A stretch of 38,823 bases of DNA, taken from positions 1 through 38,823 of the forward strand of contig DUMU01000037.1 in the NCBI GenBank assembly GCA_012839805.1. The letters run 5' to 3'. Positions within the stretch are counted from its first letter, which is position 1; the number at the start of each line of letters is the position of its first letter. Positions 4,771 to 34,360 of this stretch are shown here, piece by piece. Source of the stretch: Bacillota bacterium. Its GTDB lineage: Bacteria > Bacillota > Limnochordia > Limnochordales > DUMU01. Below the pieces are notes generated by a model, which saw nothing but the letters and a program-made list of their open reading frames with translations, was not told where the DNA came from and ran no database searches. The translations under genes and the position numbers were made by a program.

Positions 4771-4898
4771 GGCCCCGTTCGGGGCGGGGGCCGGGCTCTC
4801 CGACCGTTGGAGTTCGGAGCTGGCGAGCCTCCCCGGGGCGGGTTTGGCTAGAAGCAGCGCACGGAGGAGTCGGCGAAAGGGGAGGGGTGGGGCGGCGC

Positions 4899-6344: not shown

Positions 6345-6360
6345 AAGGAGCGGGCAATAG

Positions 6361-7095: not shown

Positions 7096-7101
7096 TGGTG
7101 A

Positions 7102-7115
7102 CACCACCGGTGGTG
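7102..7115. repeat. Perfect 14-bp palindrome between purC and purS
   Basis: CACCACCGGTGGTG, embedded in a direct repeat of GGTGACACCA. It sits in the 58-base purC-purS spacer and could be a small intercistronic structure. A function is not established. Confidence 0.35.
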
Positions 7116-7153
7116 ACACCACTGGCCGCCACGAGAAGGGGGCGGAATGAGAA

Positions 7154-7561
7154 GTGACGATGGCAGCCGGAAGGGGCGAGAGGGTGCAAGAGCAAGAGCG
7201 GGGCAAATTTGCGGTGAGGGTGCTGGTTCACTTCAAGGACGGGGTGCTGGACCCACAGGGACAGGCGGTGAGGGGCGCGCTGCACGCCCTCGGTTATGAA
7301 GGAGCGGAGAACGTTCGGGTGGGCAAAGTGATCGACTTCGAGCTCGCCGCGCGCGATCGAGCCACGGCTGAACGTACCGCCGAGGAGATCTGCCGCCGTC
7401 TTCTTGCCAACCCGGTAATGGAGAAATACGAGTTTTCTCTTCGGGAAGCGGGGACGCCGGCAGAGGGGGCAGGGGCGGATGCCTCGACAGAAGCCAGAGC
7501 GCCCGCAGGAGTAGAAGCGGGAGCAGTGGCGACGACCCCGCCGGGGAGGTCAAGGGAATGA
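7154..7561 (+). CDS. purS: FGAM synthase subunit PurS with C-terminal extension
   Basis: Small subunit of formylglycinamidine ribonucleotide synthase, needed to couple the PurQ glutaminase to small-type PurL. The PurS fold occupies about residues 18-97: beta strand FAVRVLVHFKDGVLDPQG, then VRVGKVIDFEL, then ANPVMEKYEFSL. The protein has 135 residues against about 80 normally. Residues 99-135 are an added Ala/Gly/Thr/Pro-rich tail of low complexity. GTG 7154 has a GA-rich ribosome binding site at 7134-7144; ATG 7160 is the alternative. The stop overlaps the purQ start (ATGA), which suggests translational coupling. Confidence 0.93.
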   Translation: MTMAAGRGERVQEQERGKFAVRVLVHFKDGVLDPQGQAVRGALHALGYEGAENVRVGKVIDFELAARDRATAERTAEEICRRLLANPVMEKYEFSLREAGTPAEGAGADASTEARAPAGVEAGAVATTPPGRSRE

Positions 7562-8262
7562 GCCGCGGGCGAGTGGGCGTGGTGATCTTCCCCGGCTCCA
7601 ATTGTGATCAGGATGTTTTGTGGGCCTTGGAGGAGTTGGGCTTCGAGGCGGTGCGGGTCTGGCACGGGTCGATGCGCCTTTCGGGGCTGGACGCGCTGGT
7701 CCTTCCCGGGGGCTTCTCGTACGGTGACTACCTGCGCGCGGGGGCAATCGCCCGTTTCTCCCCGGTCATGCAGGCGGTGACCGCCTGGGCCGAAAAGGGT
7801 CTCCCGATCCTGGGAATCTGCAACGGTTTTCAGATCTTGTGCGAGGCAGGAGTCTTGCCCGGGGCATTGCTTCCCAATGTGAGCCGGCACTTCCAGTGTG
7901 AACCGGTACACGTGCGGGTGGAGAACGTAAGCACGCCGTTCACCCGGGGGATACCGGCGGGAAGAGTGCTCCGGCTGCCGATTGCGCACGCTCAAGGGCG
8001 CTATTTTGCTCCCCCGGAGGTGCTGGCCGCCCTGGAACGCAACGGGCAGGTGGTTTTCCGCTACACCAGCGCCGCCGGTGAACGGGCGGCGGCCGCCAAC
8101 CCCAACGGTTCACTAAACGATATTGCGGGTATTTGCAATCCGGCGGGTAACGTGGTGGGGTTGATGCCCCATCCGGAGCGGGCGGTTCACCGGAGCCTGG
8201 GCGGGGAGGATGGCCGGTTGATCTTTCTTTCGCTGGCCGAAGTGCTGGCGACGGTAATGTGA
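7558..8262 (+). CDS. purQ: FGAM synthase glutaminase subunit (PurQ)
   Basis: Class I glutamine amidotransferase that supplies ammonia to PurL. 234 residues. The nucleophile Cys lies in GICNGFQIL, preceded by the oxyanion segment LPGGFSYGDYLRAGA. The catalytic His/Glu pair lies in MPHPERAVH near the C-terminus, and HAQGRYF is also conserved. It begins within the purS stop codon, so PurS and PurQ are probably made in fixed proportion. Confidence 0.95.
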   Translation: MSRGRVGVVIFPGSNCDQDVLWALEELGFEAVRVWHGSMRLSGLDALVLPGGFSYGDYLRAGAIARFSPVMQAVTAWAEKGLPILGICNGFQILCEAGVLPGALLPNVSRHFQCEPVHVRVENVSTPFTRGIPAGRVLRLPIAHAQGRYFAPPEVLAALERNGQVVFRYTSAAGERAAAANPNGSLNDIAGICNPAGNVVGLMPHPERAVHRSLGGEDGRLIFLSLAEVLATVM

Positions 8263-8329
8263 GGGTGACCGTTTCGCACGGCGAAGGTAACACCCCAGTG
8301 GGAGTAACGGGTCAGGTGGAGAGGGTCAG

Positions 8330-10786: not shown

Positions 10787-10792
10787 AGCAAG

Positions 10793-12553
10793 GTGTGCGG
10801 GGTTTTCGGGATTTGCGGCCGGCTGCAGGCACCCGGTGAGGCTTCTGATATCCCGGCTGCCAACGCTGCGAGCCCGGCCGGACCGTGGCCCCTGCCCGCG
10901 GCCCACCTCACCTATCTCGGTCTCTTTGCTTTACAGCACCGGGGGCAGGAGAGCGCCGGGATCGCGGTTTCGACCTGGGAAAACGGCGTTGCCGGCGCGC
11001 GTAACCGGGGCCGCCCGGCGGAAGTGGCGGCGAGGTACGAGGAAGCCGAGGTAACGGTGGGCGGGGGTATTCTCCTCCGCAAGGATATGGGGCTGGTGGC
11101 GGAGGTCTTCGACCGGGAAAAGCTCGAGCAACTGCCGGGTAGTGCCGCGATCGGGCATGTCCGCTACTCGACCACCGGGGCAAGCCGCCGTGAGAACGCG
11201 CAGCCGCTGCTCGGCATCACTTCCCACGGGCCGGTGGCCATCGCTCACAACGGGAACTTTACCAACGCGTCCTCTTTGCGCCGGCGCTTGCTATCGGCGG
11301 GGGCGATCTTCCAGACTACCACCGATACCGAGCTCTTGCTCGCCCTCATCTCGCAGTCGGCCGCCGAAGACCTCCCGCAGGCGGTCGCCCAGGCCCTGCA
11401 GGCCGTGCGGGGGGCGTATGCCCTGGTCATCCTGGGCGAGCAGCCGGCGGGCCGTCTGGCGAGCAGTTCGACGGGCCGTCCGGCGGGTCGTCCGGCAGGC
11501 GGTTCGGCGGTTCGTTCGTCCGGCCGTCCGGCGGGAGGCGCGGGAGGCGGGATGCCGGGCATAGCCGGCGATAGGCCGGGCCCGGGCGAAGCGGCCGGAG
11601 CGGCGAACGAGACCTGGCCGGTGCTGATTGGCTGTCGCGACCCCTATGGCCTGCGGCCTCTCGTAGTGGGTGAACGTCCCGATGCCTATGTCCTTGCTTC
11701 GGAAACCTGTGCCCTGGCCACGGTGGGGGCGACGCTCGTGACCGAGCTCGCGCCCGGGGAGGCGGCCATTATCACCCCGGCCGGGCTCAGGATCGAACGC
11801 TGGTTCCCGCCCCGCCGGTCCGCGCTCTGCGTTTTCGAATACATCTACCTCGCGCGGCCAGATTCGGAGCTGGAGGGGCAAAGTGTGCATCGGGTGCGGC
11901 AGGCGATCGGCCGCGAACTGGCCGCCGAAGCTCCCGTCGAGGCCGACGTCGTTATCCCCGCCCCCGACTCCGGTACTTCCGCGGCCCTTGGCTACAGCCA
12001 GGGCTCGGGCATCCCCTTCGACCTGGGGCTGGTGAAGAACCGGTACGTGGGCCGCACCTTCATCCAGCCCGATCAGGCCGCCCGGGAGCTCGGCGTTCGC
12101 ATCAAGCTGAACCCCGTTCGCTCCGTCCTGGCCGGCCGGCGGGTGGTGGTGGTCGACGACTCCATCGTGCGGGGAACTACCAGCCGCAAGACCGTGGCTT
12201 TGCTGCGGGAGGCGGGGGCGAAGGAAGTTCACCTGATGATCGCTTCGCCGCCTTACCGTTACCCCTGCTATTACGGGGTGGATACCACCGATGAAGAAAA
12301 GCTCATCGCCCGCCGGCATTCCGTCGAAGAGATCCGCCAGGTGGTGGGCGCCGATAGCCTCCACTTCGTTTCGCTTGCGGGTCTCTTACGGGCGGTGCGA
12401 GGAGTCCGGGGCGGCGGAGCAGGCGAGACGGAGTTCGACGCCGACCTTTGTACTGCCTGTTTCAGCGGCCGCTATCCAACGGAGCTTCCCGAAGGAGCAA
12501 GACCTGCCAAGGATGAACTGGAAAGGGAGTGGCAGCATGCCGGCACCAGTTGA
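10793..12553 (+). CDS. purF: Amidophosphoribosyltransferase (PurF), Fe-S type
   Basis: Committed step of purine synthesis: PRPP plus glutamine to phosphoribosylamine. An N-terminal Ntn glutaminase domain with Cys2 as nucleophile is followed by a phosphoribosyltransferase domain whose PRPP motif is [14 protein letters not shown] (451-464). Four cysteines, 346 (ALCVFEY), 492 (YPCYYG), 553 and 556 ([10 protein letters not shown]), match the [4Fe-4S] ligands of the B. subtilis enzyme, which is degraded on oxidation. The stop of purL in the same frame at 10784-10786 leaves no room for the propeptide that B. subtilis PurF carries. Residues 216-272 are an inserted Gly/Pro/Arg/Ser-rich repeat stretch (GRPAG units). 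Length is 586 against about 470. GTG start behind GGAGGAG. Confidence 0.95.
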
Positions 12554-13613
12554 GGGCCGCAACGAACCCGGGGTGACTTACCGGGCGGCGGGGGTCGATA
12601 TCGAGGCAGGTTACGCCGCGGTCCGTCGTATCAGGGAGCTGGCCCGTTCCACCTACCGGCCCGAAGTCCGGGGCGATATCGGAGCGTTCGGAGGCTTTTT
12701 CGCCCTGGACCCGGCACGTTACCGGCGGCCGCTCCTGGTCTCGGGGAGCGACGGGGTCGGCACCAAGCTCAAGATAGCGTTTGCCCTCGACCGGCACGAC
12801 ACCGTCGGTATCGATTGCGTGGCTTATTGCGTCAACGACATTCTCTGCCACGGCGCCGAGCCTCTCTTTTTCCTGGACTATCTGGCCGTGGGCCGGCTCG
12901 ACCCCGAAAAGGCAGCCCGGATCGTAGCCGGGGTGGCCGAGGGCTGCCGGCAGGCGGGTTGTGCCCTCATCGGCGGGGAGACGGCGGAGATGCCCGGCTT
13001 TTATCCCCCCGATGAGTACGACCTGGCCGGCTTTGCGGTGGGAGTGGTGGAAGAAGATGAGGTAATCACCGGTGAACGGGTTGCCCCCGGTGACGTGCTG
13101 CTCGGCCTTGCTTCCACCGGCCTACAGTCCAGCGGCTTTTCGCTGGTGCGCCGGATAATCTTGGAGCAGCACCGGCTCCCCCTCGACCGGTACTACCCCG
13201 AGTTCGGCCGCACGCTGGGAGAGGAACTCCTTACGCCCACCGCCATTTACGTTAAGCCCGTGTTGCGTCTCGTGAACGAACTGCGCACGGCGGGTTACGA
13301 GGTACGCGGCATCGCCAACATCAGCGGTGGGGGGCTTCCCGAAAATCTCCCCCGGGCGATGGCCGAGGGGACGAGGGCGCTGATACGAACCGGGAGCTGG
13401 CCCGAGCCCCCGATCTTCGACCTGATCCGCCGGCTCGGACCGGTGGCCGAAGAGGAGATGCGCAGGACGTTTAACCTGGGCGTGGGTATGGTGGTGATCC
13501 TGCCGGCCGCGGCCGTCGACCGGGCAAGGGCGCTGCTGGCGGAGGAAGGCGTGACGAGCTGGCCTATCGGCGAGGTGGCGGCGGGAGAAAAGGGAGTCGA
13601 ATGGGTGAAGTGA
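12537..13613 (+). CDS. purM: AIR synthetase (PurM)
   Basis: Cyclises FGAM to aminoimidazole ribonucleotide using ATP. 358 residues, normal length. Conserved segments are the glycine-rich loop [11 protein letters not shown] (71-81), the [17 protein letters not shown] helix (about 99-115) and [14 protein letters not shown] 12537 follows GAAAGGGAG and overlaps the end of purF by 17 bases. The frame is open further upstream inside purF, but without homology. The 3' end overlaps the purN start. Confidence 0.95.
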
Positions 13614-14359
13614 CGGGACCGAGTGAAGTGACAAGGGTGCAAGGGCCGGTGCGACCGGCCCGGGCGGGCGAACCGGCCCGGCTCGCCGTTCTGGTCTCGG
13701 GCCGGGGCTCGAACCTCCAGGCGATCCTGGATGCTTGTGCCGGGGGCGAGCTCAAGGGCCTGGCCCGGGTCGAGGCGGTGGTGAGCGATAACCCCGAGGC
13801 CCCGGCCCTGGCCCGGGCCAAAGCCGCCGGCGTGCCCAGGGTCGAAGTCCTGGACCGCCGCTCCTTCCCTAATCGTGCCGCCTACGACCGGGCGCTGGAT
13901 GCGCTCCTTGCCGAGATCGACCCTGATTTGATCTGCCTTGCCGGCTACATGCGCCTGGTGGCTCCTGCTACCGTTGCCCGCTGGCGGGGTCGTATGTTGA
14001 ACATCCACCCGGCTCTCCTGCCCGCCTTCCCGGGTTTGCATGCCCAGCGGCAGGCGGTCGAATATGGCGTGAGAGTGAGCGGCTGTACGGTTCACCTGGT
14101 GGATGAAGGGATGGATACCGGGCCGATCCTTCTGCAGGAGGCAGTCCCGGTATACCCCGACGACACCGAAGAGAGTTTGTCGGAACGCATTCTTCCCGTG
14201 GAGCACCGCCTGTACCCGGCGGCCATTCGCTTCGTGTTGACGCAGCCGTGGCGGCTGGTGGGAAGGCGAATCACTCTGTGCGAGGAGGGTGTTGAGGGTG
14301 CCCGAGGAACCGGAGATACCGTCAGAGGTGCCGGAGAAGCCTTCGACGGCTGCAAATAG
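13601..14359 (+). CDS. purN: GAR formyltransferase (PurN)
   Basis: Transfers a formyl group from 10-formyl-THF to glycinamide ribonucleotide. The phosphate-binding loop is [11 protein letters not shown] (32-42). The catalytic triad is visible as Asn134 and His136 in NIHPALLP, and Asp172 in DEGMDTGP, equivalent to E. coli Asn106/His108/Asp144. The 252 residues include an N-terminal extension of about 26 and a C-terminal Gly-rich tail that overlaps the purH start. ATG 13601 has AAAGGGAG upstream and overlaps the purM stop by 13 bases. Confidence 0.95.
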
Positions 14360-16166
14360 GTCCCTAATCCGCATCAAGAGGGCACTGATCAGTGTCTCGG
14401 ACAAGCAGGGGATAGTGGAGCTCGGCCGGGCTCTGGCGCAAGGAGGGGTCGAGATCATCTCCACCGGGGGGACTTTCCGTCTCCTGCAGGAGGCAGGCGT
14501 GCCGGTTCGACCGGTGAGCGAGGTGACCGGCTTCCCGGAAATGCTGGAGGGCCGGGTCAAGACTCTCCATCCCCGGATCCACGCCGCCATTCTGGCCCGC
14601 CGGGATCGTCCTGACGACATGGCCGCCCTGGCCGCCCATGGAATTGAGCCCATCGACCTGGTAGTCGTCAACCTGTATCCCTTCAGCAAAACGGTGGCTC
14701 GACCCGGCGTGAGCTGGGCGGAAGCCATCGAGGAGATCGACGTCGGCGGGCCAACCCTGCTCCGGGCAGCCGCGAAAAACCACGGCCACGTGGTAACGCT
14801 CTGTGAACCGGAGCAGTATGACGAGTTCCTCGCCCGGTGGCGGGAGCTGGGCGGTATTCCGGTCGAGTGGTCGCGGCAACTGGCGCTCGCGGTTTTTGCC
14901 CACACCGCAGCTTACGACGCCGCGATCCAACGCTTCTTCTTGCGGCAACTGGATCCCGCTGAGCCACCCCGCCGGTTAACGCTTCCGCTTGAGCTTGTCT
15001 CCGGCTTGCGGTACGGGGAAAACCCGCACCAGCAAGCTGCGTTCTACCGGGACCCTTTGGCCGGTGAGGTTCTGCAAGGTACGCCCGGCCTTGCTGGTGT
15101 CGCCGGCGATCGCGACGGTGGCTCCTCCCCCACGGCGCCGACCCTGCCGGTCGGACCGATCTCGCTGGTCGGGGTCAAGCAGCGACACGGCAAGGAGCTT
15201 TCATTCAACAACATTCAGGACGCCGACGCGGCTTTGGCGCTGATCGCCGAGTTTGCCGCGCCCGCGGCCTGCGCCATCAAGCACATGAACCCCTGCGGGC
15301 TCGCGGTCGCTCCCACCATTACCGAGGCTTACCGCCGGGCTTACGAGAGCGACCCGGTCTCCATCTTCGGCGGTATCGTGGCGCTCAACCGGCCGGTTGA
15401 CCTGGCCACGGCCAACCTGCTGAAAGAGACCTTCCTCGAAGTGATCCTGGCTCCATCTTTCGACGATGATGCTTTGGCGGTACTCCAGAAGAAAAAGAAC
15501 CTGCGGCTGCTGGAAGTTCCCGGGTTGGCGGCGCTGGCCGAAGCGGTGGAGTCGGGGAAGATCCGGCCCGTATACGGTTTTGTCTCTCCCTGGGCAGTGG
15601 GGAAGCGGCCGGGAGCAGAGGCAGGAGAGGGCGAGCAGGCAGCGGCGAGGAAGGGGGAGGAGGCAGCGGCGGGGCAGGCAGCCAGCGGCTGGTCGCCCCT
15701 CGGCACTCCCTTCCTCGACGTGCGGAAAGTGGCGGGAGGGTATTTGGTTCAGCAGCCGGATAGGTTGGAGCTGGATCGGGCCGCGTGGAAAGTGGTCACC
15801 GAAACTCCTGTTCCCGATGAATTGTGGGACGACCTCATCTTTGCCTGGATCGCCGTCAAGCACGTGAAGTCCAATGCCATAACCGTGGCCCGCCACCGGC
15901 AGCTCCTCGGCAGCGGCGCCGGTCAGATGAACCGCATTACCTCTGCCCGCCTGGCCCTGGAGCAGGCGGGGGCGAAGGCGAAAGGTGCGGTCCTGGCTTC
16001 CGATGCGTTCTTCCCCTTCCCCGACGTGGTGGAAGCGGCCGCCCGGGCGGGGATCGCCGCCATCATCCAGCCGGGCGGGAGCGTCCGTGACGAAGAGTCC
16101 ATCGCGGCCTGCAACCGGGCCGGCATCGCCATGGTCTTCACCGGCCGCCGGCACTTCCGGCACTGA
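14298..16166 (+). CDS. purH: Bifunctional AICAR transformylase / IMP cyclohydrolase (PurH)
   Basis: Last two steps to IMP. The N-terminal cyclohydrolase (MGS-like) domain contains [21 protein letters not shown] and NLYPF. The C-terminal transformylase contains [15 protein letters not shown] (328-334) with the catalytic Lys-His pair, and the closing IQPGGSVRD and [11 protein letters not shown]. The 622 residues include two low-complexity inserts, about 263-285 and 432-468 (Glu/Ala/Gly-rich). GTG 14298 is best spaced from GAGGAGG (14282-14288); GTG 14289 and TTG 14292 are in frame but too close. The gene overlaps purN by about 60 bases. Confidence 0.95.
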
Positions 16167-16295
16167 CCCTGGCGTCGGTTCTGGGACCGAGCACACCGCT
16201 CCGGCGCTCTTGCCAGGCAGCGAGGCCAGGGACGGGATCGATAGGATCGATATTCCTAGGGCGGTTGTGAGCAGCATGAGGTGGGGTGACCTTTA

Positions 16296-17765
16296 GTGAA
16301 CCGGATTCTGGTGGTCGGGTCGGGCGGCCGGGAGGACGCCCTGGGTTGGGCTCTGGCTCGGGCCGGGGCGCAGCAGCTTTGGTTTTACCCGGGAAACGCC
16401 GGGACACTACGCTGGGGCACCAACATCAGCCGGTACGGTATGCCGGCCGGCAAGAGCTCGGAGAAGGAAGAAGTCGAGGCGATAGTGAAATGGGCGCAGG
16501 CCCATGGCATCGACCTCGTGGTGGTCGGCCCCGAGGCCTACCTGGCCGCCGGCCTGGCTGACCGGATGCGGGCGGCAGGCATCCCCGTCTTCGGGCCGGG
16601 CGTCGCCGGCGCCCGGATCGAGGCCAGCAAGGCCTGGGCCAAAGAGTTCATGGCCCGGCACGGAATCCCCACCGCTCCTCATGTGACCTTTACGCAGGCG
16701 GAGGCCGGCGCCGCCCGGCGGTACGTGGAGCAGTCCGGCCGGCCGCTCGTGATCAAAGCGGACGGTCTTGCTGCGGGTAAAGGCGTTCGGGTCACCGCCA
16801 GCCGGCAGGAAGCCCTCGAGGCCCTGGAAGCTCTCCTCGTGGAAGGGACGCTGGGCGAGGCGGGCCGCACCGTGGTGATCGAGGAACGCATGGAAGGGCG
16901 CGAGGTGAGCCTCCTTGCCATTACCGACGGCGAGGCGCTGTTGGTCCTCCCCGAGGCGCAGGATCATAAGCGGGTGGGCGAGGGTGACACCGGGCCGAAC
17001 ACGGGGGGCATGGGAGCTTACTCACCCGTTCCCTTCTTCAACAAAGAGGTGCGTGAGGAGGCCATCCGGCGCATTTTGCTGCCCGCCGTTCAGGGGCTGG
17101 CCGGGGAAGGGATCGATTACCGGGGCGTGCTTTATGCCGGGCTGATGCTGACCGGAGATGGACCGAAGGTGGTGGAGTTCAACTGCCGGTTCGGTGACCC
17201 CGAGACCCAGGTGATCTTGCCGCGGCTTAGCGTCGATTGGCCGTCCCTGCTGGGGGCCGCAGCCCAAGGCCGCCTGGGTGAATACTTGCGTGAACTATCT
17301 TCAACCGGTGCGACCGCTTGTGCTGACGCCACTGCTGCGAGTGTTGCTAATGCTGCAACTGCTGAGAGTCCTGCGGCTGCTACCGGCGGCACCGTTCTAC
17401 GGGCGCGCTCTACATTCTCCCAGGTTTGGGAGCTGCGCCCGACCACTGGCGCGGCTTTGGGTGTGGTGCTGGCCTCCCGTGGCTACCCGGGCAAGTACGA
17501 GACCGGGTTTCCCATCAGCGGCCTCGACGTGGTCGCCGCCCTTCCCGGGATCGAAGTTTTCCATGCCGGCACCCGCGTCGATCCTTCCCGGCCGGGCGAG
17601 GTGCTGACCGCGGGCGGGCGGGTACTCAACGTCGTTGGGCTGGGCGACACGTTGTCCGAGGCCCGGTCCCGGGCTTACGAAGGAGCGGCCGCCATACGTT
17701 TCGACAATGTGTACTACCGCCGGGACATTGGCCACCAGGCGCTGGAGGAGTCGCGGGATCAATGA
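16296..17765 (+). CDS. purD: GAR synthetase (PurD)
   Basis: ATP-grasp ligase joining phosphoribosylamine and glycine, second step of the pathway. The N-terminal Rossmann-like motif is GSGGREDALGWAL, with Asp where GGREHAL is usual. ATP-grasp features are VIKADGLAAGKGV (152-164), NTGGMGAYSP (235-244) and the metal-binding EFNCRFGDPE (294-303). Residues 335-372 are an inserted Ala/Thr-rich stretch just before the C-terminal domain, raising the length to 489 from about 425. GTG start behind a weak GAGGTGGGG. It is 129 bases after purH and probably the last gene of the operon. Its end overlaps the convergent Uma2 gene by 7 bases. Confidence 0.95.
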   Translation: MNRILVVGSGGREDALGWALARAGAQQLWFYPGNAGTLRWGTNISRYGMPAGKSSEKEEVEAIVKWAQAHGIDLVVVGPEAYLAAGLADRMRAAGIPVFGPGVAGARIEASKAWAKEFMARHGIPTAPHVTFTQAEAGAARRYVEQSGRPLVIKADGLAAGKGVRVTASRQEALEALEALLVEGTLGEAGRTVVIEERMEGREVSLLAITDGEALLVLPEAQDHKRVGEGDTGPNTGGMGAYSPVPFFNKEVREEAIRRILLPAVQGLAGEGIDYRGVLYAGLMLTGDGPKVVEFNCRFGDPETQVILPRLSVDWPSLLGAAAQGRLGEYLRELSSTGATACADATAASVANAATAESPAAATGGTVLRARSTFSQVWELRPTTGAALGVVLASRGYPGKYETGFPISGLDVVAALPGIEVFHAGTRVDPSRPGEVLTAGGRVLNVVGLGDTLSEARSRAYEGAAAIRFDNVYYRRDIGHQALEESRDQ

Positions 17766-19302: not shown

Positions 19303-19753
19303 CGGGGTACTGACATTGGGGTCGGCGGGGTAGAGGAGGTGGTCGGCTGGTGGAATGTCTTGGTCATACCGTGGCGGCACCCGGTACTCCAACACTTGTA
19401 AGCCTTCCTGGAAGCGGCCTGTACGGCGCGAGCCCATCCCCCTCGGCGGTAGTTGCACCCCGGAGGTGAACACGCACCGTTGAAGTGGTACAAGTGGATG
19501 GTGGCGTCCTCAGGCTTACCGGCCGTGAACGGCCTGCTGTGGTGCGGGGAGTGTCGAGAGAAGGCTGCCGTGGCGGCTGCGGTCCCGGGTGCGGTGCCGC
19601 GGACGGCGACGGTATAGAGAGCAGGGTGCGGCGGGCCGAGGGATATGCCGGGTGGCAAGCAGGCCCGGGCCGGGAAGGTATCGGCGGAGGTGTCTCGAAA
19701 GAGCCTATGATGGAATTCGCGTGCTGAAGAGACAGCCCGGGAGGCGAGGGTGT
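19303..19753. other. Intergenic region upstream of the M42 gene
   Basis: About 450 bases of GC-rich sequence without a gene I can support. Several frames are open on both strands, but they lack starts with ribosome binding sites and read as Gly/Arg/Pro-rich shadow translations. The M42 frame is itself open back to 19589, with Arg-rich, non-homologous content. Confidence 0.3.
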
Positions 19754-22024
19754 TTGGCAAGAGGCGAGGAGCTGCAGTACTTGGCGGATGTTCTGCTCAG
19801 GCTCGCAGGTGTGCGCGCCGCGGCCGGGCAGGAGCGCGCGGTGGCCGATGCGATCGAAGAGACGGCGAGACCCTGGATCGATGAGTCCCGCCGGGACTCG
19901 TTCGGGAACTTGTGGCTGATACGTCGGAGTCGCCGGGAGGCCGGTGGGCCGCGGGTGATGCTTTCGGCGCACATGGACGAGATCGCCTGGCTGGTGCGGG
20001 CCGTGGAGAAAGGGGGCTTTCTCCGCCTTTCACCCCTGGGCGGGGTGGATGCTGCCACTTACGTGGGCCATGAGGTGGTCGTCGTCACGGAGCAGGGCGA
20101 GCTCTTGCCCGGGATCGTGGGCACGAAACCACCTCACCTGACGAGGGAGGAGGAGTACCGACGTTTTCCCGAGCCGGAATCGCTATTCGTTGACATCGGC
20201 CTCTCCGAGGAGGAGACCCGCCGGCGGGTCAAAGTCGGAGACGTCGTCTATCCGTCCGTTCTACCGGCCCGGATCGGCGAGGGCCGGGTGACGGGCAAGG
20301 CGCTGGACAACCGGGCGTCGGTGGCCATCATGCTCTGGGCGTTGCGCCTGCTCCGGGGCCGTGATCACCAGGCCGAGATCTTCGCCGTCGCCACCGTGCA
20401 GGAGGAGCTGGGAATGCGGGGCGCGAGGACGGCGGCTACCGCCATCGCGCCGGACATTGCCATCGCCATCGACGTGGGATTTGGTCTGCAGCCGGGCGTC
20501 GACCGCTGGCACGGCCCCGGCCTCAAGCTGGGCGGCGGCCCGGCCATTACCGCGGGTCCGAACCTTCACCCGGGCTTGCGCCAGGCTCTGCTCGACACCG
20601 CACGTCGCATCCGGGTGGAGACGCAGGAGGAGGTAGCACCCGGTTCAACGGGGACGGATGCGTGGTACATACAGGTGGCAGGTGAGGGCATTCCCGTAGC
20701 ATTGCTCTCTTTACCCCTTCGCTATATGCATTCTTCCGTCGAACTGGCCGCCCTGTCGGATCTGGAAGAGACCGCCCGGCTTCTCGCGGAGTTCCTGGCC
20801 GGCGTCGGGCCGGAATGGAAGCGGCGGCGCCCGGGGTGGGTGGTAGGGGCGACGGCTACCACCTCCGAACTGCCTCCCCTCGTAACGGCGGGCGGGTCTA
20901 CCGCCGGGGCAGGTTTGGGGCAGGCTACGGCGGCCACCGGTGACGGCGAAGGAGACCTGACCCTGCGGGACGACCTGGCCGGCCGCCTGGTTCAGACCCT
21001 GGGGGCGCTCTCCGAGTTGCGCGGTCCTTCCGGCGACGAAGCCGAGGTCCGCCAGTGGTTGATGGAACGACTGCCCAAGGACGTAGACGAGGTCTTCGTG
21101 GACACCATGGGTAACCTCCTGGTGGCAAAAGGGCTGAACCGGCCCGGCCCGCGGGTTATGGTGGACGCGCATATGGACGAAGTGGGGCTGATCGTCAAGG
21201 GGGTGGACGACGACGGGTTCCTGCGCGTGGGGGTGCTGGGTGGCATCGATCCGCGGGTCCTGCCGGCCCAACGGGTACTCGTAGGAAGTTCGGGGTTGCT
21301 GGGTGTCATTGGGACGAAACCGGTTCACCTGAAAAAGGGAGAAGAAAAATCGAAAGCCCCCGAGCTTGACGACCTTTACGTTGATATAGGCGTCGCCGGC
21401 CGGGCCGAGGCGGAAAAGCTGGTTCGGCCGGGCGACACGATTACCTTTGCGACCCGTTTCCAGCCGGTCGGAAAGGGGCTGGTCAAGGGGAAGGCACTGG
21501 ATGATCGCGGCGGGGTTGCGCTCCTTCTCCACCTGCTTGCCGAGGAGTGGGAGTTTTCCTTCTTTGCTGCCTTCACCGCGCAGGAAGAAACGGGGCTGCG
21601 AGGGGCTCAGGTGGCGGCCGACCAGATTCGTCCCGACCTCGGGCTGGCTCTGGAGACCACGATCTGCGCCGACCTGCCGGACGTGCCCGGGCACGGGCAG
21701 GCGACGCGCCTTGGCGGAGGGCCGGCGGTGAGTTTCCAGGACCGGGCCTCGGTGGCCGACCCGGCCCTGGTCGCGCTCATCCAGAAGGTGGCGGCCCGGG
21801 AGAATATCGCCTGGCAATGGCGGCGGGCGCTGGGAGGCGGGAATGATGCGGGGGCGATCCAGCAGCGGGCGGGCGGAGCTCGCACGTGCACTCTTTCCAT
21901 CCCGTGCCGTTACCTCCACACCCCGGCGAGCCTCCTCGCGGTATCGGACATGGTGAAGACCTACCAGCTGGCTCGGGCCTTTTTGCGGGAATTGCCCCGG
22001 TTTTGGGCGGCGGCCGGCCGCTGA
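19754..22024 (+). CDS. Fused tandem M42 family aminopeptidase (two catalytic domains)
   Basis: Two complete M42 (TET/FrvX-type) metallo-aminopeptidase domains in one 756-residue chain. Domain 1 (about 5-350) shows the di-metal ligands His73 and Asp75 (SAHMDE), Asp185 (GKALDNR), Glu217/Glu218 (VQEELG), Asp240 and His326 (RYMHS). Domain 2 (about 405-750) shows His473 and Asp475 (DAHMDE), Asp583 (GKALDDR), Glu611/Glu612 (AQEETG), Glu634 in the Asp240 position, and His722 (RYLHT). The linker (about 353-402) is Gly/Ala/Thr-rich. M42 proteins normally have about 350 residues and form dodecameric tetrahedral cages. TTG 19754 follows GGGAGGCGAGGG; GTG 19721 is an alternative. Followed by an M42-like gene lacking the ligands. 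Confidence 0.9.
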   Translation: MARGEELQYLADVLLRLAGVRAAAGQERAVADAIEETARPWIDESRRDSFGNLWLIRRSRREAGGPRVMLSAHMDEIAWLVRAVEKGGFLRLSPLGGVDAATYVGHEVVVVTEQGELLPGIVGTKPPHLTREEEYRRFPEPESLFVDIGLSEEETRRRVKVGDVVYPSVLPARIGEGRVTGKALDNRASVAIMLWALRLLRGRDHQAEIFAVATVQEELGMRGARTAATAIAPDIAIAIDVGFGLQPGVDRWHGPGLKLGGGPAITAGPNLHPGLRQALLDTARRIRVETQEEVAPGSTGTDAWYIQVAGEGIPVALLSLPLRYMHSSVELAALSDLEETARLLAEFLAGVGPEWKRRRPGWVVGATATTSELPPLVTAGGSTAGAGLGQATAATGDGEGDLTLRDDLAGRLVQTLGALSELRGPSGDEAEVRQWLMERLPKDVDEVFVDTMGNLLVAKGLNRPGPRVMVDAHMDEVGLIVKGVDDDGFLRVGVLGGIDPRVLPAQRVLVGSSGLLGVIGTKPVHLKKGEEKSKAPELDDLYVDIGVAGRAEAEKLVRPGDTITFATRFQPVGKGLVKGKALDDRGGVALLLHLLAEEWEFSFFAAFTAQEETGLRGAQVAADQIRPDLGLALETTICADLPDVPGHGQATRLGGGPAVSFQDRASVADPALVALIQKVAARENIAWQWRRALGGGNDAGAIQQRAGGARTCTLSIPCRYLHTPASLLAVSDMVKTYQLARAFLRELPRFWAAAGR

Positions 22025-22223
22025 CCGTGGGCGGGCCGGCGGAACGGGTTGGCGCGGCCAGGCCCAGACGTGGTTCGATGGGCGCGGACCGCCGCAGGCG
22101 AAGACCCCGGCGCAGGCGCGAACTCGAGGCGCAAGTAAGCAGCGTCGTGATGGAAAAGCGCGTCGGAAACGACGGTGAAAAGCCTGGTAGAAAAGCGTGG
22201 CAGAAGAAAGGATGGCGACACGG

Positions 22224-23459
22224 ATGAAAACCGACGAACTGGCAGGCTGGGTAGCCATTCCCGCTCCCTCCGGTCGCGAGGCGCGACTGCGGGGTACCAT
22301 CGTTCGTGAACTCGAGGCTTTTGGCGCACGGCCAGAGACCCTGCCCGGCGGGCCGGGGGGGCCGAGCGGGCCGGGCGAGTCCCGCGGGCTATGCTGGCAG
22401 ATCGATCCTCTGGGTAACCTGATCGTGCCACCGGTTCACGGACCGCGGGAGGGTGTCCTCACCCTGGCTGCTCCCCTCGATGAGCCCGGGGTCGTGGTCA
22501 CTCATATCGACGAGCAGGGTTATCTCCGTTTTGACCTCGTAGGTAACCTCGAACCGTCAGAGATCAACGGGCGGCTGGTACTGCTCCAGGGTCAGACCGG
22601 CGACTGCTTCGGCGTGATAGCGTTGGACCGGCGGCTTCGCCAGCGGGGGCGGGGGAATGCCGGGAACTCCGGCCAGGCTGCCGGTGAACTGCGAGCAGAA
22701 GAGCTATTCATCGACATCGGGGCTCCAAGTCGCGCCGAGGCGGAAAGAGAGGTGACGGTGGGCTCGGCCGGAGTCCTCTGGTGGGCCGGAATTTGGAGCG
22801 ACGCGCCGGGCGGCACGGGGGAGGGCACGCGGGGTGTGCTCATCCGGATGGGCAGCGGGCCGGACCGGCTGGCCGGGCGGGCCCTGGGCCGGCGGAGCCT
22901 GGCATACCTGCTCTTCGACCTGATTCGATCCAGCGCTGCACCCCCGGCTGTGTCCCCGTCTGCGTCCCCGGTGTCCCCGGCAACGGCCGCGGCGCGGCCG
23001 GCCGCCTTCGTCTTTACCGTTCAAAGCTTGCTGGGCGGCCGGGGCATACAGACGGCCGCTTTCCGGCTCGAGCCCGACCCGCTTATCGTCCTTATGCCGG
23101 TGGCGGCGCACGATTGGCCGGCGGCCGATCCCGGCGAGGTCAAGCTGGGCGGCGGGCCGGTCCTGGTGCTAAAAGAAGGACCGGGGACATCGGACCGGGA
23201 TCTGGCGGCCCGGCTGGAAGCGGTGGCCGGCTCGGCGGGGATTCCCCTGCAGCGGCACGTCGCCACGGGCCGCATGGCCAACGACCTGAGCCAGGGCGCC
23301 TGGGCCGGGCGCGGCGCCCGCGCCCTGGGCCTCGGCCTCCCGGTGCGAGCGGCCGCCGGCGGTGGCCCCGAGATCATCGCCACCGCCGACTGGACTGCTT
23401 TGCGAGAGCTATTGCTCCGTCTCTTGGGGGAGGGGATCGACCACGAGCAACGCCGGTAG
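22224..23459 (+). CDS. M42-like protein without metal ligands (pseudo-peptidase)
   Basis: 411 residues with the M42 outline but a degraded active site. The HMDE position reads APLDE (His replaced by Pro84, Asp86 kept), GKALDDR reads GRALGRR (Asp replaced by Gly222), the QEE catalytic pair is QSL (267-269), and the final His is absent from the matching LPVRAA segment. Retained elements include PAPSGRE at the N-terminus, the DPLGNLIV strand, LFIDIGAPSRAEAE and KLGGGP. It could be a structural or regulatory subunit of the neighbouring fused enzyme. ATG 22224 has AAAGGA 11 bases upstream; GTG 22197 and ATG 22212 are in frame. Pro/Gly- and Ser/Pro-rich inserts lie at 41-54 and 238-260. The 3' end overlaps the convergent next gene by 51 bases. 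Confidence 0.8.
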   Translation: MKTDELAGWVAIPAPSGREARLRGTIVRELEAFGARPETLPGGPGGPSGPGESRGLCWQIDPLGNLIVPPVHGPREGVLTLAAPLDEPGVVVTHIDEQGYLRFDLVGNLEPSEINGRLVLLQGQTGDCFGVIALDRRLRQRGRGNAGNSGQAAGELRAEELFIDIGAPSRAEAEREVTVGSAGVLWWAGIWSDAPGGTGEGTRGVLIRMGSGPDRLAGRALGRRSLAYLLFDLIRSSAAPPAVSPSASPVSPATAAARPAAFVFTVQSLLGGRGIQTAAFRLEPDPLIVLMPVAAHDWPAADPGEVKLGGGPVLVLKEGPGTSDRDLAARLEAVAGSAGIPLQRHVATGRMANDLSQGAWAGRGARALGLGLPVRAAAGGGPEIIATADWTALRELLLRLLGEGIDHEQRR

Positions 23460-24677
23460 GCAGGAAGCACCCGGGGGCATGAAGTCGAAGCCGTAGACGA
23501 CCTCTTTTCCAGGTTCCAGTTCAAACTGGGCAAGAAAGGACATCTCCCGACCGTACCCCGGGAAAGTGCGCCGCGGTGTCTCCGGGATACGCACTACCCG
23601 GCCGGCCTGGGGACCGGCGGTAATACGGATCGCACCGGCGAAACCACACCCGGACCCCGAACCGAATAAAACCCGCACCCTCTGCCGTTCTTCGGAACGC
23701 AGCCGCAGGGTGATATGGTAGATGACGCCGTAGTTGCCAAAGTTCATCCGGGTGTTGCCGTCCAGCTCATCCCGGCCAACTTGGAAGGGATCGTAGTACT
23801 TACCGCTGGCGAAGAGCCAGATCCCCTGCTCTTCGCCGCCCTTCCATTCGAGTTCGACGTAACGGTCGGCGGAGGGGAAGGTTCCGCGCATGTTTTTGCC
23901 GGGATCAACCTCGTAGGGGTGGAAACGATCGGGCTCAAGATCGTCTAGCCCGTTCGTAGCCAGGACGAGCATCTCGACGGGCCCGTCCACCTCCCCCTCG
24001 TAGAGCCCTTCGATTAGCTGGTTCTCCCCGACCGGCCGGGACAAGCCAACCGGGTCGAGAAGAGCCCAGCCACCGGCCGGGATCACTATCCGGCGGGGCT
24101 GGTTCGAGAGCAGAAAGGCGCGCAGTGCCTCCTGGCCTACCCAGTTGTATCCGGTGCTGGGCCCCCGTACGCCCTCGCGGTGGACGACTACGGTAACGTC
24201 CTTGTCCGACAGGTTCCGGACGACTACCGGGAAGTATTTGGCAAGCCCTGAGTCCTGGTTCACGTGGTAGACGAAGAGCCGCCAGGCCCCGGGAGCGAAA
24301 GTCCCGCGGGCCAGGATCCCCTCGCCCCGGACATACTCGGGCTGATCGCTGAAAAGAAGGGGCGGACCGCTTTCCGTGTAGGTGAAGGATTCGGCGAGGT
24401 AGAGGGGAGGGGGACTGTCCAGCGTGACGATGGCACCCGGATAGGGGGTGGAGGGCGACGCTGCCCATGCCACCGGCAGTACCGGCAAGCGCGGCGACAG
24501 CGGCAACACCGGCACGCCTGGTAGCGCCGGTAGCACCGGCAGCACCGCCAGCATCAACAACATCGGGAAAAACCGCACCAGGATGGAGCCGGGCGCAGGC
24601 GCGCGCGGTCCTGGTCTGATCGCCCGGGCTCTACATCCACGCAGAACCATAGGAGAGGGCACACCGTTTCTGTTCAA
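23409..24677 (-). CDS. Secreted protein of unknown function
   Basis: About 422 residues. An N-terminal positively charged segment is followed by a long Leu/Val/Pro-rich hydrophobic stretch and a likely signal peptidase site near AWAASP, so export is predicted. The mature part is beta-rich with Tyr/Gly/Pro: YVRGEGILARGTFAPGAWRLFVYHVN, then a part dealing with VVVRNLSDKDVTVVVHREG, and a C-terminal domain with FGSGSGCGFAG. I do not recognise the family. TTG 24677 suits an AAAGGA box; GTG 24686 is nearly on top of it. The signal region encodes a VLPVLPALPG-type repeat. Convergent with and overlapping the M42-like gene. Confidence 0.7.
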   Translation of the reverse strand: MNRNGVPSPMVLRGCRARAIRPGPRAPAPGSILVRFFPMLLMLAVLPVLPALPGVPVLPLSPRLPVLPVAWAASPSTPYPGAIVTLDSPPPLYLAESFTYTESGPPLLFSDQPEYVRGEGILARGTFAPGAWRLFVYHVNQDSGLAKYFPVVVRNLSDKDVTVVVHREGVRGPSTGYNWVGQEALRAFLLSNQPRRIVIPAGGWALLDPVGLSRPVGENQLIEGLYEGEVDGPVEMLVLATNGLDDLEPDRFHPYEVDPGKNMRGTFPSADRYVELEWKGGEEQGIWLFASGKYYDPFQVGRDELDGNTRMNFGNYGVIYHITLRLRSEERQRVRVLFGSGSGCGFAGAIRITAGPQAGRVVRIPETPRRTFPGYGREMSFLAQFELEPGKEVVYGFDFMPPGASCLPALLVVDPLPQETEQ

Positions 24678-24856
24678 GGTTGGCACATCCTTTCGGGTTT
24701 AGCATTCGTTTCGGGATCTGGTTTCCCTGCCGGGGAACGACGTTAGAGTAAGGAATGGGCAAAGCGGTACGGCAGGAGAAGTTGTCCCAATCGTCAAAAC
24801 CTAATGAGTAAACCACGCAAAGGGACGATCGCACGCTGAAAGAGCTAGAGCAGGTT

Positions 24857-27359: not shown

Positions 27360-29303
27360 CTACTCGATCGCCTCGATCTTCGCCTCCAGCTCGTCGAGGA
27401 GCTGGCCAAACAGGGCGAGCGCCTGCCGGATGGGTTCGGGCGAACGCATGTCCACCCCGGCTTCGTCCAGTAGCTCCAGCGGGTAACGGGACGAGCCGCC
27501 GGCGAGGAACCGGAGGTAACGTTCGACCGCCCCCGGCTCCTCCCCCAGGCGCGTCTCCGGGCGGCTCCCCCTATCTGGCCCGGCGCTTGTGCCGGCGCCC
27601 GCCGCCGTACCTGCCTCCCCGGCCGTCCCCCCGGCCGGCCGCGCGCCTGCACCCGCTGCCTCCTGGAGAATGCCGTTCGCCAGGGCGACGGCGGCGGAAA
27701 AACCGGTCGCGTACTTGTAGACGTAGAAATTCATGTAAAAATGCGGGATACGGGCCCACTCCAAAGCTATCTCGTCATCAACTACTATATCTGGACCGTA
27801 GTAGTCACGATTGAGCTGGTAGTACGTTTTACTCAACCACTCGGGCGTCAAAGAGCCGCCATTTTCCACTTCCTCGTGAATGGCCTTTTCGAACTCGGCA
27901 AACATGGTCTGGCGGTATACCGTCCCGCGGAAAGCTTCGAGGAAGTGATTGATCACGTATAGCCGCAGGCGATCGTCGTCCAGTATTTTGCGCAAATAAT
28001 CGAAGAGAAGCACTTCGTTGACCGTAGAGGCGACTTCAGCAACGAATATCCCGTAGTGGGCGTAGACGTAGGGCTGGGCCTCCTGGCTGAAAAACGAGTG
28101 CATCGCATGTCCGAGTTCGTGAACTAAAGTGAAGAGATCGTCAAGGCGCGACTGGTAGTTCAGAAGGATGAAAGGATGAGTTCCGTAAGCTCCCCAGGAG
28201 TAGCCACCCGCGTACTTCCCCTGGTTTTCGAAGACGTCGATCCATCCTCCGCCGAGAGCACGTTCCAGGGGCTCGGCATACCTCTTTCCAAGGGGTGCAA
28301 GTGCTGCTCGAGCTCGTTGTTTGGCTTCTTCGTACGGCACCTCCATGTCCACCCGGGGAACGATGGGGGTGTAAAGATCATACATGTGGAGCTCGTCGAG
28401 TCCCAAAGCGCGACGACGGAGCCGCACGTAACGATGGAGCAGCGGAAGATACTCCCGGACGGTGGCAATCAGGTTGTCGTACACCTCGAGGGGGATGTTC
28501 TCACCATCGAGGGCCGCGGCCCGGGCGGAAGGGTACTTGCGGGCGCGGGCATAGAAGATGTTGCGCTTGACCTGGGCGGCCAGGATGGCGGCGAGAGTGT
28601 TCTTATGCTTGCCGTAGGTTTCGTATAGGGCCCGGAAAGCGTCCTGCCGGACGCGACGATCACGGCCTTCCATGAAGCGGAGATATCTGGCTTTGGTTAG
28701 CTCGACCTCCCGGCCTTGCTCGTCGCGGATGACCGGAAAGCGCAGGTCGGCGTCGTTCAGCATGGTGAAAATGTTGTCCGGAGCTTCGCCGAGCTCACCG
28801 GAGAGGGCAAGGAGGCGCTCCTCGGCCGGGGAGAGGGTGTGGGCTTTGCGCCGGAGCAGTTCGTCCAAATGGTGCCGATAAAGCTCAAGACCTTCGGTTT
28901 CGGCCAGGTAACGGCGGATGGTCTCCTCAGGCAGGGCCAGTATCTCCGGGGCGATGAAGGCGGTCGCTTCACCGGCTTCCACTCCCAGGTGCTCGGCCCG
29001 ATCAACCAGGGCCTGCGCGACCTGGTTGGTGCTATCCTCGTCCCGGTGCATACGTGCATAGACGTACAATCGCTCGAGTTTTTCGTCGATGCGGTCACGC
29101 AGGCTCAAGCAGGCAAGCAGCGTCTGGCCGCTCTCGCCAAGCCGCCCCGAGTAGGTGCGAATCTCCCCGAGCCACTCCCGGACCGCGGCATAATCGCGCT
29201 CCCAGGCTTGCTGGTCCGGATAGATGTCCTCCAGTCGCCAGCGGTATTGCTCCGGAATCTCGCTGCGCTTGGGTATGGTAAGAGGTGCGGCCGGCTCTGC
29301 CAT
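27360..29303 (-). CDS. pepF: Oligoendopeptidase F (M3B family)
   Basis: Cytosolic zinc oligopeptidase that trims peptides of moderate length. 647 residues. The zinc motif HELGH is at 395-399 (FTLVHELGHAMHSFF) with the third ligand Glu423 in VAEVASTVNE. The N-terminal RWRLEDIYPD and the helical region with VYARMHRDEDST are typical of PepF. Residues 549-592 are an inserted Gly/Ala/Thr-rich repeat stretch near the C-terminus, which is absent from ordinary PepF of about 600 residues. ATG 29303 is preceded by AAGGAG nine bases upstream; a TTG at 29333 is in frame but less likely. Confidence 0.95.
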   Translation of the reverse strand: MAEPAAPLTIPKRSEIPEQYRWRLEDIYPDQQAWERDYAAVREWLGEIRTYSGRLGESGQTLLACLSLRDRIDEKLERLYVYARMHRDEDSTNQVAQALVDRAEHLGVEAGEATAFIAPEILALPEETIRRYLAETEGLELYRHHLDELLRRKAHTLSPAEERLLALSGELGEAPDNIFTMLNDADLRFPVIRDEQGREVELTKARYLRFMEGRDRRVRQDAFRALYETYGKHKNTLAAILAAQVKRNIFYARARKYPSARAAALDGENIPLEVYDNLIATVREYLPLLHRYVRLRRRALGLDELHMYDLYTPIVPRVDMEVPYEEAKQRARAALAPLGKRYAEPLERALGGGWIDVFENQGKYAGGYSWGAYGTHPFILLNYQSRLDDLFTLVHELGHAMHSFFSQEAQPYVYAHYGIFVAEVASTVNEVLLFDYLRKILDDDRLRLYVINHFLEAFRGTVYRQTMFAEFEKAIHEEVENGGSLTPEWLSKTYYQLNRDYYGPDIVVDDEIALEWARIPHFYMNFYVYKYATGFSAAVALANGILQEAAGAGARPAGGTAGEAGTAAGAGTSAGPDRGSRPETRLGEEPGAVERYLRFLAGGSSRYPLELLDEAGVDMRSPEPIRQALALFGQLLDELEAKIEAIE

Positions 29304-29439
29304 CGCCCGATTCTCCTTCCCTGACAATTCCAAGTGGGTGGCGGTTCGTCACAGGTCCTGTCGCATGCTCGCGCATCGGCCCCGCCGGAGTCAAGCCCTG
29401 AAGCCCCGTCACCGTACCCGTCATATCCCACCGTGGTGC

Positions 29440-32092: not shown

Positions 32093-34360
32093 TTGGAACG
32101 GTCGCTCTACGTTGGGCTGGACATCGGCTCGACCACGGTTAAGGTCGCCGGTATCGACGACGGAGGGCAGCTGGCCGGAGAACCCGTCTACCTGCGCCAT
32201 GACGCGTTCCCTTCGCCGATCGATGCCCTGAAATACGCATTTCGCCGCTATCTTGACACGGTGGCCGGCACGGCGGGCCGGGTGCGAGGAGTGGGCGTGA
32301 CCGGGAGCGGCCGGGCCCTGGTAGCTCACCTGGTGGGAGCCGACCTCACCCGGAGCGAGATTCTCGCCCATGCCGCGGGTGTACTCCATCTGGTAGGTCC
32401 CGGCGCGGTCGGCTCGGTGGTAGAGATCGGCGGGCAGGACTCCAAGGTCATCGTCTTCGGCGAAGACGGAATTCCCAGCTTTTTCAACATGAATACGATC
32501 TGTTCGGCCGGGACCGGGGAGTTTCTCAAGCAACTCGCGGATGAGGCAGGGCTAACTCTGGAGGAGTTCGGTCGTATCGCCCTGGAAAGCCGTCACCCGG
32601 TTACGATCGATGCCACCTGCACGGTCTTCTCCCGGCGGGACTTCCGCCACCTCACCCAAAAGGGAGTGCCGCTCGCGGATCGCTTAATGGGGGTCTGCCA
32701 CGCCCTGGTCCGCAACTATCTGGTGAACGTGGTTCAGCAGATGAAGCTGCCGTCGCCGGTCTTTTTCCAGGGGGGCGTTGCCCTTAACCCCGCGGTACGA
32801 CGGGCGCTGGCCGAAAGGCTCGGCGTCCCGGTGCACCTGACACCTCATGGCGAGGTTATTGGGGCAATAGGCATGGCCGTTCTGGTCCGGGACGAGGACC
32901 GGGGCGAGCCACAAGGCAGGCAAAGGGTGGGGGGCCGGTTTCGCGAGGATTTCTTCGATCGGCGGTTCCAGACTCGCATGCGTTACTGCCACGGTTGCCG
33001 CAACGCTTGTGAACTGGCCCAAGGGTACGAGCAGACGCCGGATGGCACCGAGGTAGTGCTTGATACGTTGGGGGGCCGTTGTGACGGATCACGGAACCCG
33101 AAGAACATAAAGGACTACCCGCAACCGTTGACCAGGCCTCACCTCTCAGTAATCCGGGACGATGTACGTAGGAGGCGCGACCGCCCGGTGGAGATGGGGC
33201 ACCGGCATGCGGCTTGGATTTCTGGAGAGCGGGAGCGGGTGCGTTCTTCTGCCGGCCGGTACGTAGCGGGGATAGACGGCGGTTCACGGGGGACGAAGTA
33301 TGCGCTCTTAAGAAGCCTGGGTGAGGGGCAGGTCGAAATAGTGGCGGTAGGGGCGCTGGAGACAGGCGGGGACGCCGTCCGGGCCTGCCTGCGGGCGATG
33401 GCCAGAATCCAGGAGGCTCTGCCCCCGGGGGAGAGGTTGGCCGCGGTCGGGACGACCGGGAGTGCGGGGGAGCTCTTCCGGGATATGCTGATCGAGCGGG
33501 TTGGGCCGGAGATTCCGAGCGCGGACTACCGTTCCACCGAGATCCTGGCCCACTATGCGTGGGCGAGTTATCGCGTTCCGGATGTGGGCACGGTAATGGA
33601 TATCGGCGGCAACGACGCGAAGATCATTGTGGTAAAGGAAGGGGGCCAGGGGGGGCTCGACTTTGCGATGAACGACAAGTGTGCCGCCGGGACGGGCGCC
33701 TTCCTCGAGGCCGTGGCCAGACGCTTCCACGTCCCCATCGAAAAGTTCGCATCGGTGGCGCTGGAGGCGACGAACCCCGCCCGGATAGCCGGGCGCTGTG
33801 CGGTTTTCGGTGAGTCGGATGTAATTCACAAAGCGCGGGTCGGATTCACGACCCCTGATCTTTTTCTTGGTGCGGCCTTCTCGGTCTGCCGTACGTATCT
33901 GTCGGACGTGGCCCGAGGTCACGAGCTGCGGCTACCTGTAGTCGCACAAGGGGGCACTTTTCTGAATGCTGCCGTGGTGCACGCGTTCCGTGAAATGCTG
34001 GAGCTAGGGCCGGAGGAGTTCCGGCTGGCCGAAGACCCGCGGGAGGTGCTGGGTGCAGGCGCTCTGGGAGCGGCGCTGCTCGCCCTCGGCCGGTGGGAGC
34101 AGGGGTTCGAATCACGGTTCAAAGGGTTTGGACGTATCCTGAGTAGTCAATACGAGACCATAACGGTAACTTGCAGCCACCCCGGGTGCTTGCGCCGGTG
34201 CCGGGATCTGGTGGTTCTCCTCGAGAACGGCGAGCCGATCGCAGGCTACCGTTCGGTCGCCTGTGAACGGGGATTTTTCGACGGGCCTTTCGAAAGCCGG
34301 GAGGAGCGTGATCATGTCGTCAACCTGCTCCGAGCTCATGTCGACGCCGTATACGCCTAG
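32093..34360 (+). CDS. 2-hydroxyacyl-CoA dehydratase-type activase, tandem ATPase domains
   Basis: 755 residues with two BadF/BadG/BcrA/BcrD (ASKHA-fold) ATPase domains, the type that injects an electron into 2-hydroxyacyl-CoA dehydratases or related reductases at the cost of ATP. Domain 1 (5-270) has VGLDIGSTTVKV, EIGGQDSK, CSAGTGEF with Cys137, and CTVF with Cys176. Domain 2 (388-690) has AGIDGGSRGTK, DIGGNDAK, CAAGTGAF with Cys530, and Cys569. The paired cysteines are the [4Fe-4S] ligands shared across a dimer. Between them Cys299, Cys302, Cys306 and Cys330 form a possible extra metal site, and the C-terminus has CSHPGCLRRC. TTG start behind GGCAGGAG. It overlaps the next gene by 47 bases, so the two products are probably partners. 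Confidence 0.9.
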   Translation: MERSLYVGLDIGSTTVKVAGIDDGGQLAGEPVYLRHDAFPSPIDALKYAFRRYLDTVAGTAGRVRGVGVTGSGRALVAHLVGADLTRSEILAHAAGVLHLVGPGAVGSVVEIGGQDSKVIVFGEDGIPSFFNMNTICSAGTGEFLKQLADEAGLTLEEFGRIALESRHPVTIDATCTVFSRRDFRHLTQKGVPLADRLMGVCHALVRNYLVNVVQQMKLPSPVFFQGGVALNPAVRRALAERLGVPVHLTPHGEVIGAIGMAVLVRDEDRGEPQGRQRVGGRFREDFFDRRFQTRMRYCHGCRNACELAQGYEQTPDGTEVVLDTLGGRCDGSRNPKNIKDYPQPLTRPHLSVIRDDVRRRRDRPVEMGHRHAAWISGERERVRSSAGRYVAGIDGGSRGTKYALLRSLGEGQVEIVAVGALETGGDAVRACLRAMARIQEALPPGERLAAVGTTGSAGELFRDMLIERVGPEIPSADYRSTEILAHYAWASYRVPDVGTVMDIGGNDAKIIVVKEGGQGGLDFAMNDKCAAGTGAFLEAVARRFHVPIEKFASVALEATNPARIAGRCAVFGESDVIHKARVGFTTPDLFLGAAFSVCRTYLSDVARGHELRLPVVAQGGTFLNAAVVHAFREMLELGPEEFRLAEDPREVLGAGALGAALLALGRWEQGFESRFKGFGRILSSQYETITVTCSHPGCLRRCRDLVVLLENGEPIAGYRSVACERGFFDGPFESREERDHVVNLLRAHVDAVYA

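Follow-up and report, generated by a model that had tools for sequence, protein, structure and literature searches.

Peptidases of the M42 (TET) family, TmPep1050 of Thermotoga maritima included, have been studied almost entirely as homo-oligomers encoded by one gene. The window analysed here, a 38,823-nucleotide stretch of a Limnochordales genome (GenBank DUMU01000037.1), breaks the M42 norm, by which a chain has a single domain of about 350 residues: one of its genes encodes two complete M42 domains, here called A and B, in a single chain of 756 residues, and the next gene, C, encodes an M42 homologue that has lost its metal site (Table 1). The question raised by this locus is whether the two proteins work together, and if so in what kind of particle.

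Table 1. Positions of the features discussed, in window coordinates unless a locus is named.
Feature	Position	Strand	Basis or remark
A-B fusion gene, two M42 domains, 756-aa chain	19754..22024	+	TTG start at 19754, stop at 22024; no stop within the reading frame; PF05343 matched twice
GGAGG ribosome-binding-like site	19740..19744	+	9 nt 5' of the TTG at 19754; from the sequence
M42 domain A	19790..20797	+	Profile match; ligand table; A clade with T. maritima 1vho
Linker joining aligned A to aligned B, about 65 aa	20798..20995	+	Low pLDDT; low identity; length variation
M42 domain B	20996..21985	+	Profile match; ligand table; B clade with TM1049
Gene C, putative M42 pseudo-enzyme, 415 aa	22212..23459	+	PF05343; ligand table; TM1050 clade; AlphaFold; VIA-align; alternative ATG start possible at 22224
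Purine biosynthesis operon	4887-17765	+	Upstream of the fusion gene
221-aa protein with C-terminal ArsR-like helix-turn-helix	18595-19260	-	Between the purine operon and the fusion gene, divergent from the latter
425-aa gene	23409-24686	-	No Pfam or NCBIfam match; convergent with C, about 50 bases of overlap at the C end
M3-family oligopeptidase (PepF-like), another peptide-degrading enzyme	27360-29333	-	About 4 kb downstream
C of L047, Alicyclobacillaceae MAG	L047:3208-4257		Glu to Gln, His to Gly
C of L043, Clostridium simiarum	L043:8071-9063		Glu-Glu to Asn-Lys
B of L142, genome G033	L142:5642-6772		Asp to Pro, Glu to Lys, His to Gly

Two complete M42 domains in one chain

The claim of a first-pass annotation that two M42 domains lie in one chain is borne out by a reading frame that is open throughout and by two matches to the Pfam profile PF05343, each covering nearly the full profile, with a summed score of 540 bits (268 and 278 bits in a separate search) against a curated cut-off of 23.2. 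Metal and catalytic positions were read after 530 M42 domains had been aligned on one shared profile, and both halves retain them, as had also been proposed: all seven positions are filled in domain A (H73, D75, D185, E217, E218, D240 and H326; HDDEEDH) and in domain B (H473, D475, D583, E611, E612, E634 and H722; HDDEEEH). Glu634, which occupies the Asp/Glu ligand at the sixth of the seven positions, is normal for the clade to which domain B belongs and is no defect. The genome has one more M42 gene, solitary and complete, on another contig.

The explanation that two genes had been joined by an assembly error or by chance was rejected, because the same architecture, a fusion followed by a C lacking its metal site, recurs in two independent genomes of the same family, G001 and G002 (loci L116 and L117). 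Their A-B is 58–70% identical to that of the window, with 58–76% for the A and B domains and 43–53% for C; in each of the two a second contig also carries an M42 match. In G002 a stop reported within the match sits at the match end, outside the linker, and an open frame of 792 residues spans both domains. No other full-length fusion was found among the matches listed for a sample of 398 genomes spread over the phylum, nor was there any among 80 named loci except in L036 (Limnochordales bacterium Bu89), which is apparently the same as G001.

Depending on the family genome, the linker is 195, 273 or 228 nt long (about 65–90 residues); its identity among the three genomes is only 15–22%, and its dN/dS is approximately 0.7–1 in the two genome pairs with finite dS. 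An AlphaFold model of the 756-residue fusion (pLDDT 89, pTM 0.89) predicts disorder only at residues 366–403, within the linker, where pLDDT falls below 50. It had been argued that the fusion would force a fixed pairing of subunits; with a linker this long, which lacks both conservation and predicted order, the fusion need not dictate the geometry. The model implies that A packs on B in a definite way, the pTM being so high over two domains of equal size. The packing is most likely that of an intrachain pair, and the pTM is silent on which of the TET contacts, dimer or trimer, the pair represents. In this model the B half is informed by six aligned sequences only; the alignment (A3) combined single A proteins with the three fusions and with A-B pairs, also three in number, translated across the intervening stop. 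Alignments of the fusion with single A and single B proteins proved unusable, MAFFT having placed all the singles on one half.

A neighbouring homologue without a metal site

The match of gene C to PF05343 is weak and split into two pieces, yet its 97 bits are far above the cut-off. At the seven ligand positions it has P88, D90, G226, S272, L273, M295 and A382 (PDGSLMA), so that only the Asp following the first ligand is kept; the first-pass annotation had likewise found a single retained residue, its Asp86 being Asp90 when counted from 22,212. The relationship of C to M42 enzymes, also asserted there, is upheld by the profile match, by its place in the C clade described below, and by an AlphaFold model (pLDDT 87, pTM 0.89) with a full M42 fold, for which VIA-align gave Z scores of 41–43 against TET and TmPep1050 structures. 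The models of A-B and C both include the inserted dimerisation domain of the M42 fold, and both match M42 structures over nearly their full length (best Z 43–47). Judged by sequence and predicted fold, then, C is a homologue of the M42 peptidases and not one of them, and inactivation of C to this extent appears to be confined to the window's family.

Such a protein might be no more than a gene in decay, without function, and the loss of six of the seven positions, the long branch of C in the tree and its faster evolution than A and B all fit that description. Conservation, though, largely refutes it. The open reading frame is intact in all three family genomes, even though these share only 43–53% identity in C, and 109 positions are identical in all three. 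Nei-Gojobori estimates of dN/dS over the three genomes are about 0.29–0.49 for C (at dS of 1.3–1.8) against 0.14–0.30 for A and B, values which are approximate, with dS at 1.2–1.8 near saturation. Because an intact frame and purifying selection are joined by a confident full-length model of the M42 fold, C is to be regarded as a maintained pseudo-enzyme, and decay as very unlikely. Of the 74 columns that the C clade conserves, 37 have survived in this family's C, comprising 7 of the 20 close to the ligands and 30 of the 54 at other places. C has in addition 32 family-specific invariant residues, many of them at the former active site, where the replacement motifs P-L-D-E-P, G-R-R, Q-S-L-L and G-L-P-V-R are invariant in the family. 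These invariant residues suggest a new use of the pocket that is still under selection.

The A-B-C cassette in other genomes

A survey of relatives for conserved adjacency had been recommended by the first-pass annotation. Of 154 loci with three M42 domains, 145 lying outside the window's family are tandem arrays on one strand in the order A-B-C, found in Bacillota, Chloroflexota and Thermotogota (for example L118, L130, L099 and L040). In a tree of 96 domains from 31 loci A, B and C each form one clade (SH-aLRT 98–99), every member of the cassette falling into its own paralogue clade, and one T. maritima protein into each: 1vho, which we take to be TM1048, into the A clade, TM1049 (2fvg) into the B clade and TM1050 (3isx) into the C clade. 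The sixth catalytic position, which is the fifth metal position, holds Asp, Glu and Asp in A, B and C respectively in 139 of the 145 cassettes. A, B and C are thus three ancient M42 paralogues, of which only the window's family has joined A to B and inactivated C. The pseudo-enzyme is not an unrelated cap; its place in the TM1050 clade identifies it as the third paralogue of a widespread and ancient trio.

It had also been anticipated that separate genes in relatives would speak against the fusion. Such genes do exist outside the family, and what they reveal is how the fusion arose. In most cassettes B, as aligned, begins 10 bases ahead of where A ends, and the two are in different reading frames in 168 of 173 A-B pairs, so the separate A and B genes overlap, an arrangement like that of genes under translational coupling. 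In this family a wider gap than in most cassettes, 187 nt in the window, separates B from C.

About 20 loci, some of them at contig ends, have A-B without an adjacent C, and because of these A-B is probably able to work without C, which seems to be the most dispensable member of the cassette. L056, L058, L061, L064, L067, L128 and the other A-B-only loci are mostly from gut Clostridia, with a diverged A.

Loss of catalytic residues from a single member is not peculiar to the window. In three other lineages one cassette member, twice C and once B, has been independently inactivated while its reading frame stayed intact (Table 1); no inactivated A was seen in this set of loci. In the non-subscription literature searched, we found no description of an M42 fusion, of an inactive M42 subunit or of the three-gene cassette.

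Comparison with known systems

A close counterpart is the trio of T. maritima, whose structures (3isx and 4p6y for TM1050, 2fvg for TM1049, and 1vho) represent one clade each and share their fold with the window proteins; the Thermotogota locus L099 has the A-B-C order of the cassette. The Thermotogota version differs in that the proteins are separate and each has its metal site complete; the window has the fused A-B and a C that, by its sequence, is inactive. A dodecameric form of TmPep1050 is reportedly known. Alone, this enzyme is an active leucine aminopeptidase, and it was purified apparently as a dimer (PMC3511314).

Mixed M42 particles have precedent in PhTET2 and PhTET3 of Pyrococcus horikoshii, which form heterododecamers of 6:6 and 8:4 composition; in the 8:4 form the two homodimers of the minor partner lie on opposite ridges, and there is a single type of apex (PMC4220976). 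They demonstrate that a single particle of 12 subunits can be built from more than one M42 paralogue, but they are an in vitro mixture of two active enzymes, with neither a fusion nor an inactive subunit. In Bacillus subtilis crosslinking in cells captured the paralogues YtoP and YsdC together, and a heteromer of the two was modelled (PDB 9a5r), in a study that also describes a YmfF-YmfH heteromer (PMC10090944). YtoP and YsdC are nevertheless separate single-domain chains, and no inactive member is known. Beyond the M42 family, ClpP/ClpR, M16 pairs such as YmfF-YmfH and the proteasome are peptidase particles in which a homologous subunit, often a non-catalytic one, has been retained. These belong to unrelated or distant enzyme families, and offer an analogy only.

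A mixed particle and its alternatives

A third member that is dead and yet maintained suggests that the trio acts as one mixed complex. We favour, with a probability of about 0.57, a lineage-specific remodelling in which A and B form a flexibly linked catalytic pair and the non-catalytic C co-assembles with them in a TET-like particle. The ancestor would have made three paralogous M42 subunits from overlapping genes; in the window's family A and B became one chain through a flexible linker, predicted to pack as a catalytic pair, and C lost its metal site while keeping, in its model, the M42 fold. C would then join A-B in a hollow TET-like particle in which peptides are cut by A and B only. If the 8:4 complex of PhTET2 and PhTET3 is taken as a guide, four A-B chains and four C chains, the latter as two dimers, would give a particle of 12 domains in which each apex has two live sites and one dead C. 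We infer that a structural or gating role for C, its co-assembly with A-B and this stoichiometry are the most likely arrangement. The hetero-oligomeric cage envisaged by the first-pass annotation, which we too can only infer, is plausible because the A-B-C order is kept in 145 loci, single paralogues have been inactivated recurrently, mixed complexes have been published, and A packs on B in the model. Against co-assembly it must be set that the C gene stands apart from A-B by a larger gap, changes faster, and has kept only half of the columns conserved in its clade.

Nor need C act in a mixed particle, because TmPep1050, a member of the C clade, is active alone (PMC3511314). The main rival is therefore that C has left the peptidase complex and acts by itself, in peptide or ligand binding or in regulation, while A-B forms an ordinary TET cage of six two-domain chains. 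Six chains would indeed suffice for 12 domains, the residues that replaced the old active site of C are invariant and its own, and the roughly 20 loci in which A-B pairs lack an adjacent C point the same way. We nevertheless think it rather unlikely, since C adjoins A-B in all three family genomes as well as in 145 other loci, and since no promoter- or terminator-like site was found in the gap between A-B and C, which is weak evidence. It is also conceivable that the fusion is structurally meaningless, a passive tether between domains that form their own homo-particles or mix at random. The length, disorder and poor conservation of the linker would suit this, as would the homododecamers that single M42 proteins form when made alone (PMC3511314, PMC8993905), but AlphaFold packs A with B at a pTM of 0.89 over the whole chain, and 1:1 tethering is in keeping with a pair that is made together, given that the A and B genes overlap in relatives; a mere tether is accordingly improbable. 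A broader proposal would be that A, B and C are obligate components of one TET cage (4A:4B:4C) throughout Bacillota, Chloroflexota and Thermotogota, of which the family version has A and B covalently joined, C in a purely structural or gating role and two working sites per apex. We advance it only tentatively, and on balance doubt it.

If the trio does work together, the structures of TM1050 and of its neighbours solved so far would each show, in isolation, one piece of a larger machine. The version that is fused and partly dead is a natural experiment, in which A and B are set at 1:1 and C is marked as non-catalytic, and a few constructs from this family would allow tests of stoichiometry, of geometry and of the need for each active site. 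It is the conserved A-B-C trio that is most worth testing.

Genomic neighbourhood

Outside the cassette, flanking genes cluster within a few loci only, and none is common to the window and its distant relatives. The purine operon upstream comprises genes for adenylosuccinate lyase, SAICAR synthetase, FGAM synthase subunits, GATase/PRT, AIRS, formyltransferase, AICARFT/IMPCHase and GARS. The ArsR-like protein encoded between this operon and the fusion gene is a possible regulator. Downstream, a Mur ligase gene is listed between the 425-aa gene and the M3 oligopeptidase, and further on, at 32,093–37,268 of the forward strand, a gene for a BadF/BadG-type ATPase is followed by one with a DUF2229 CoA-enzyme-activase segment.
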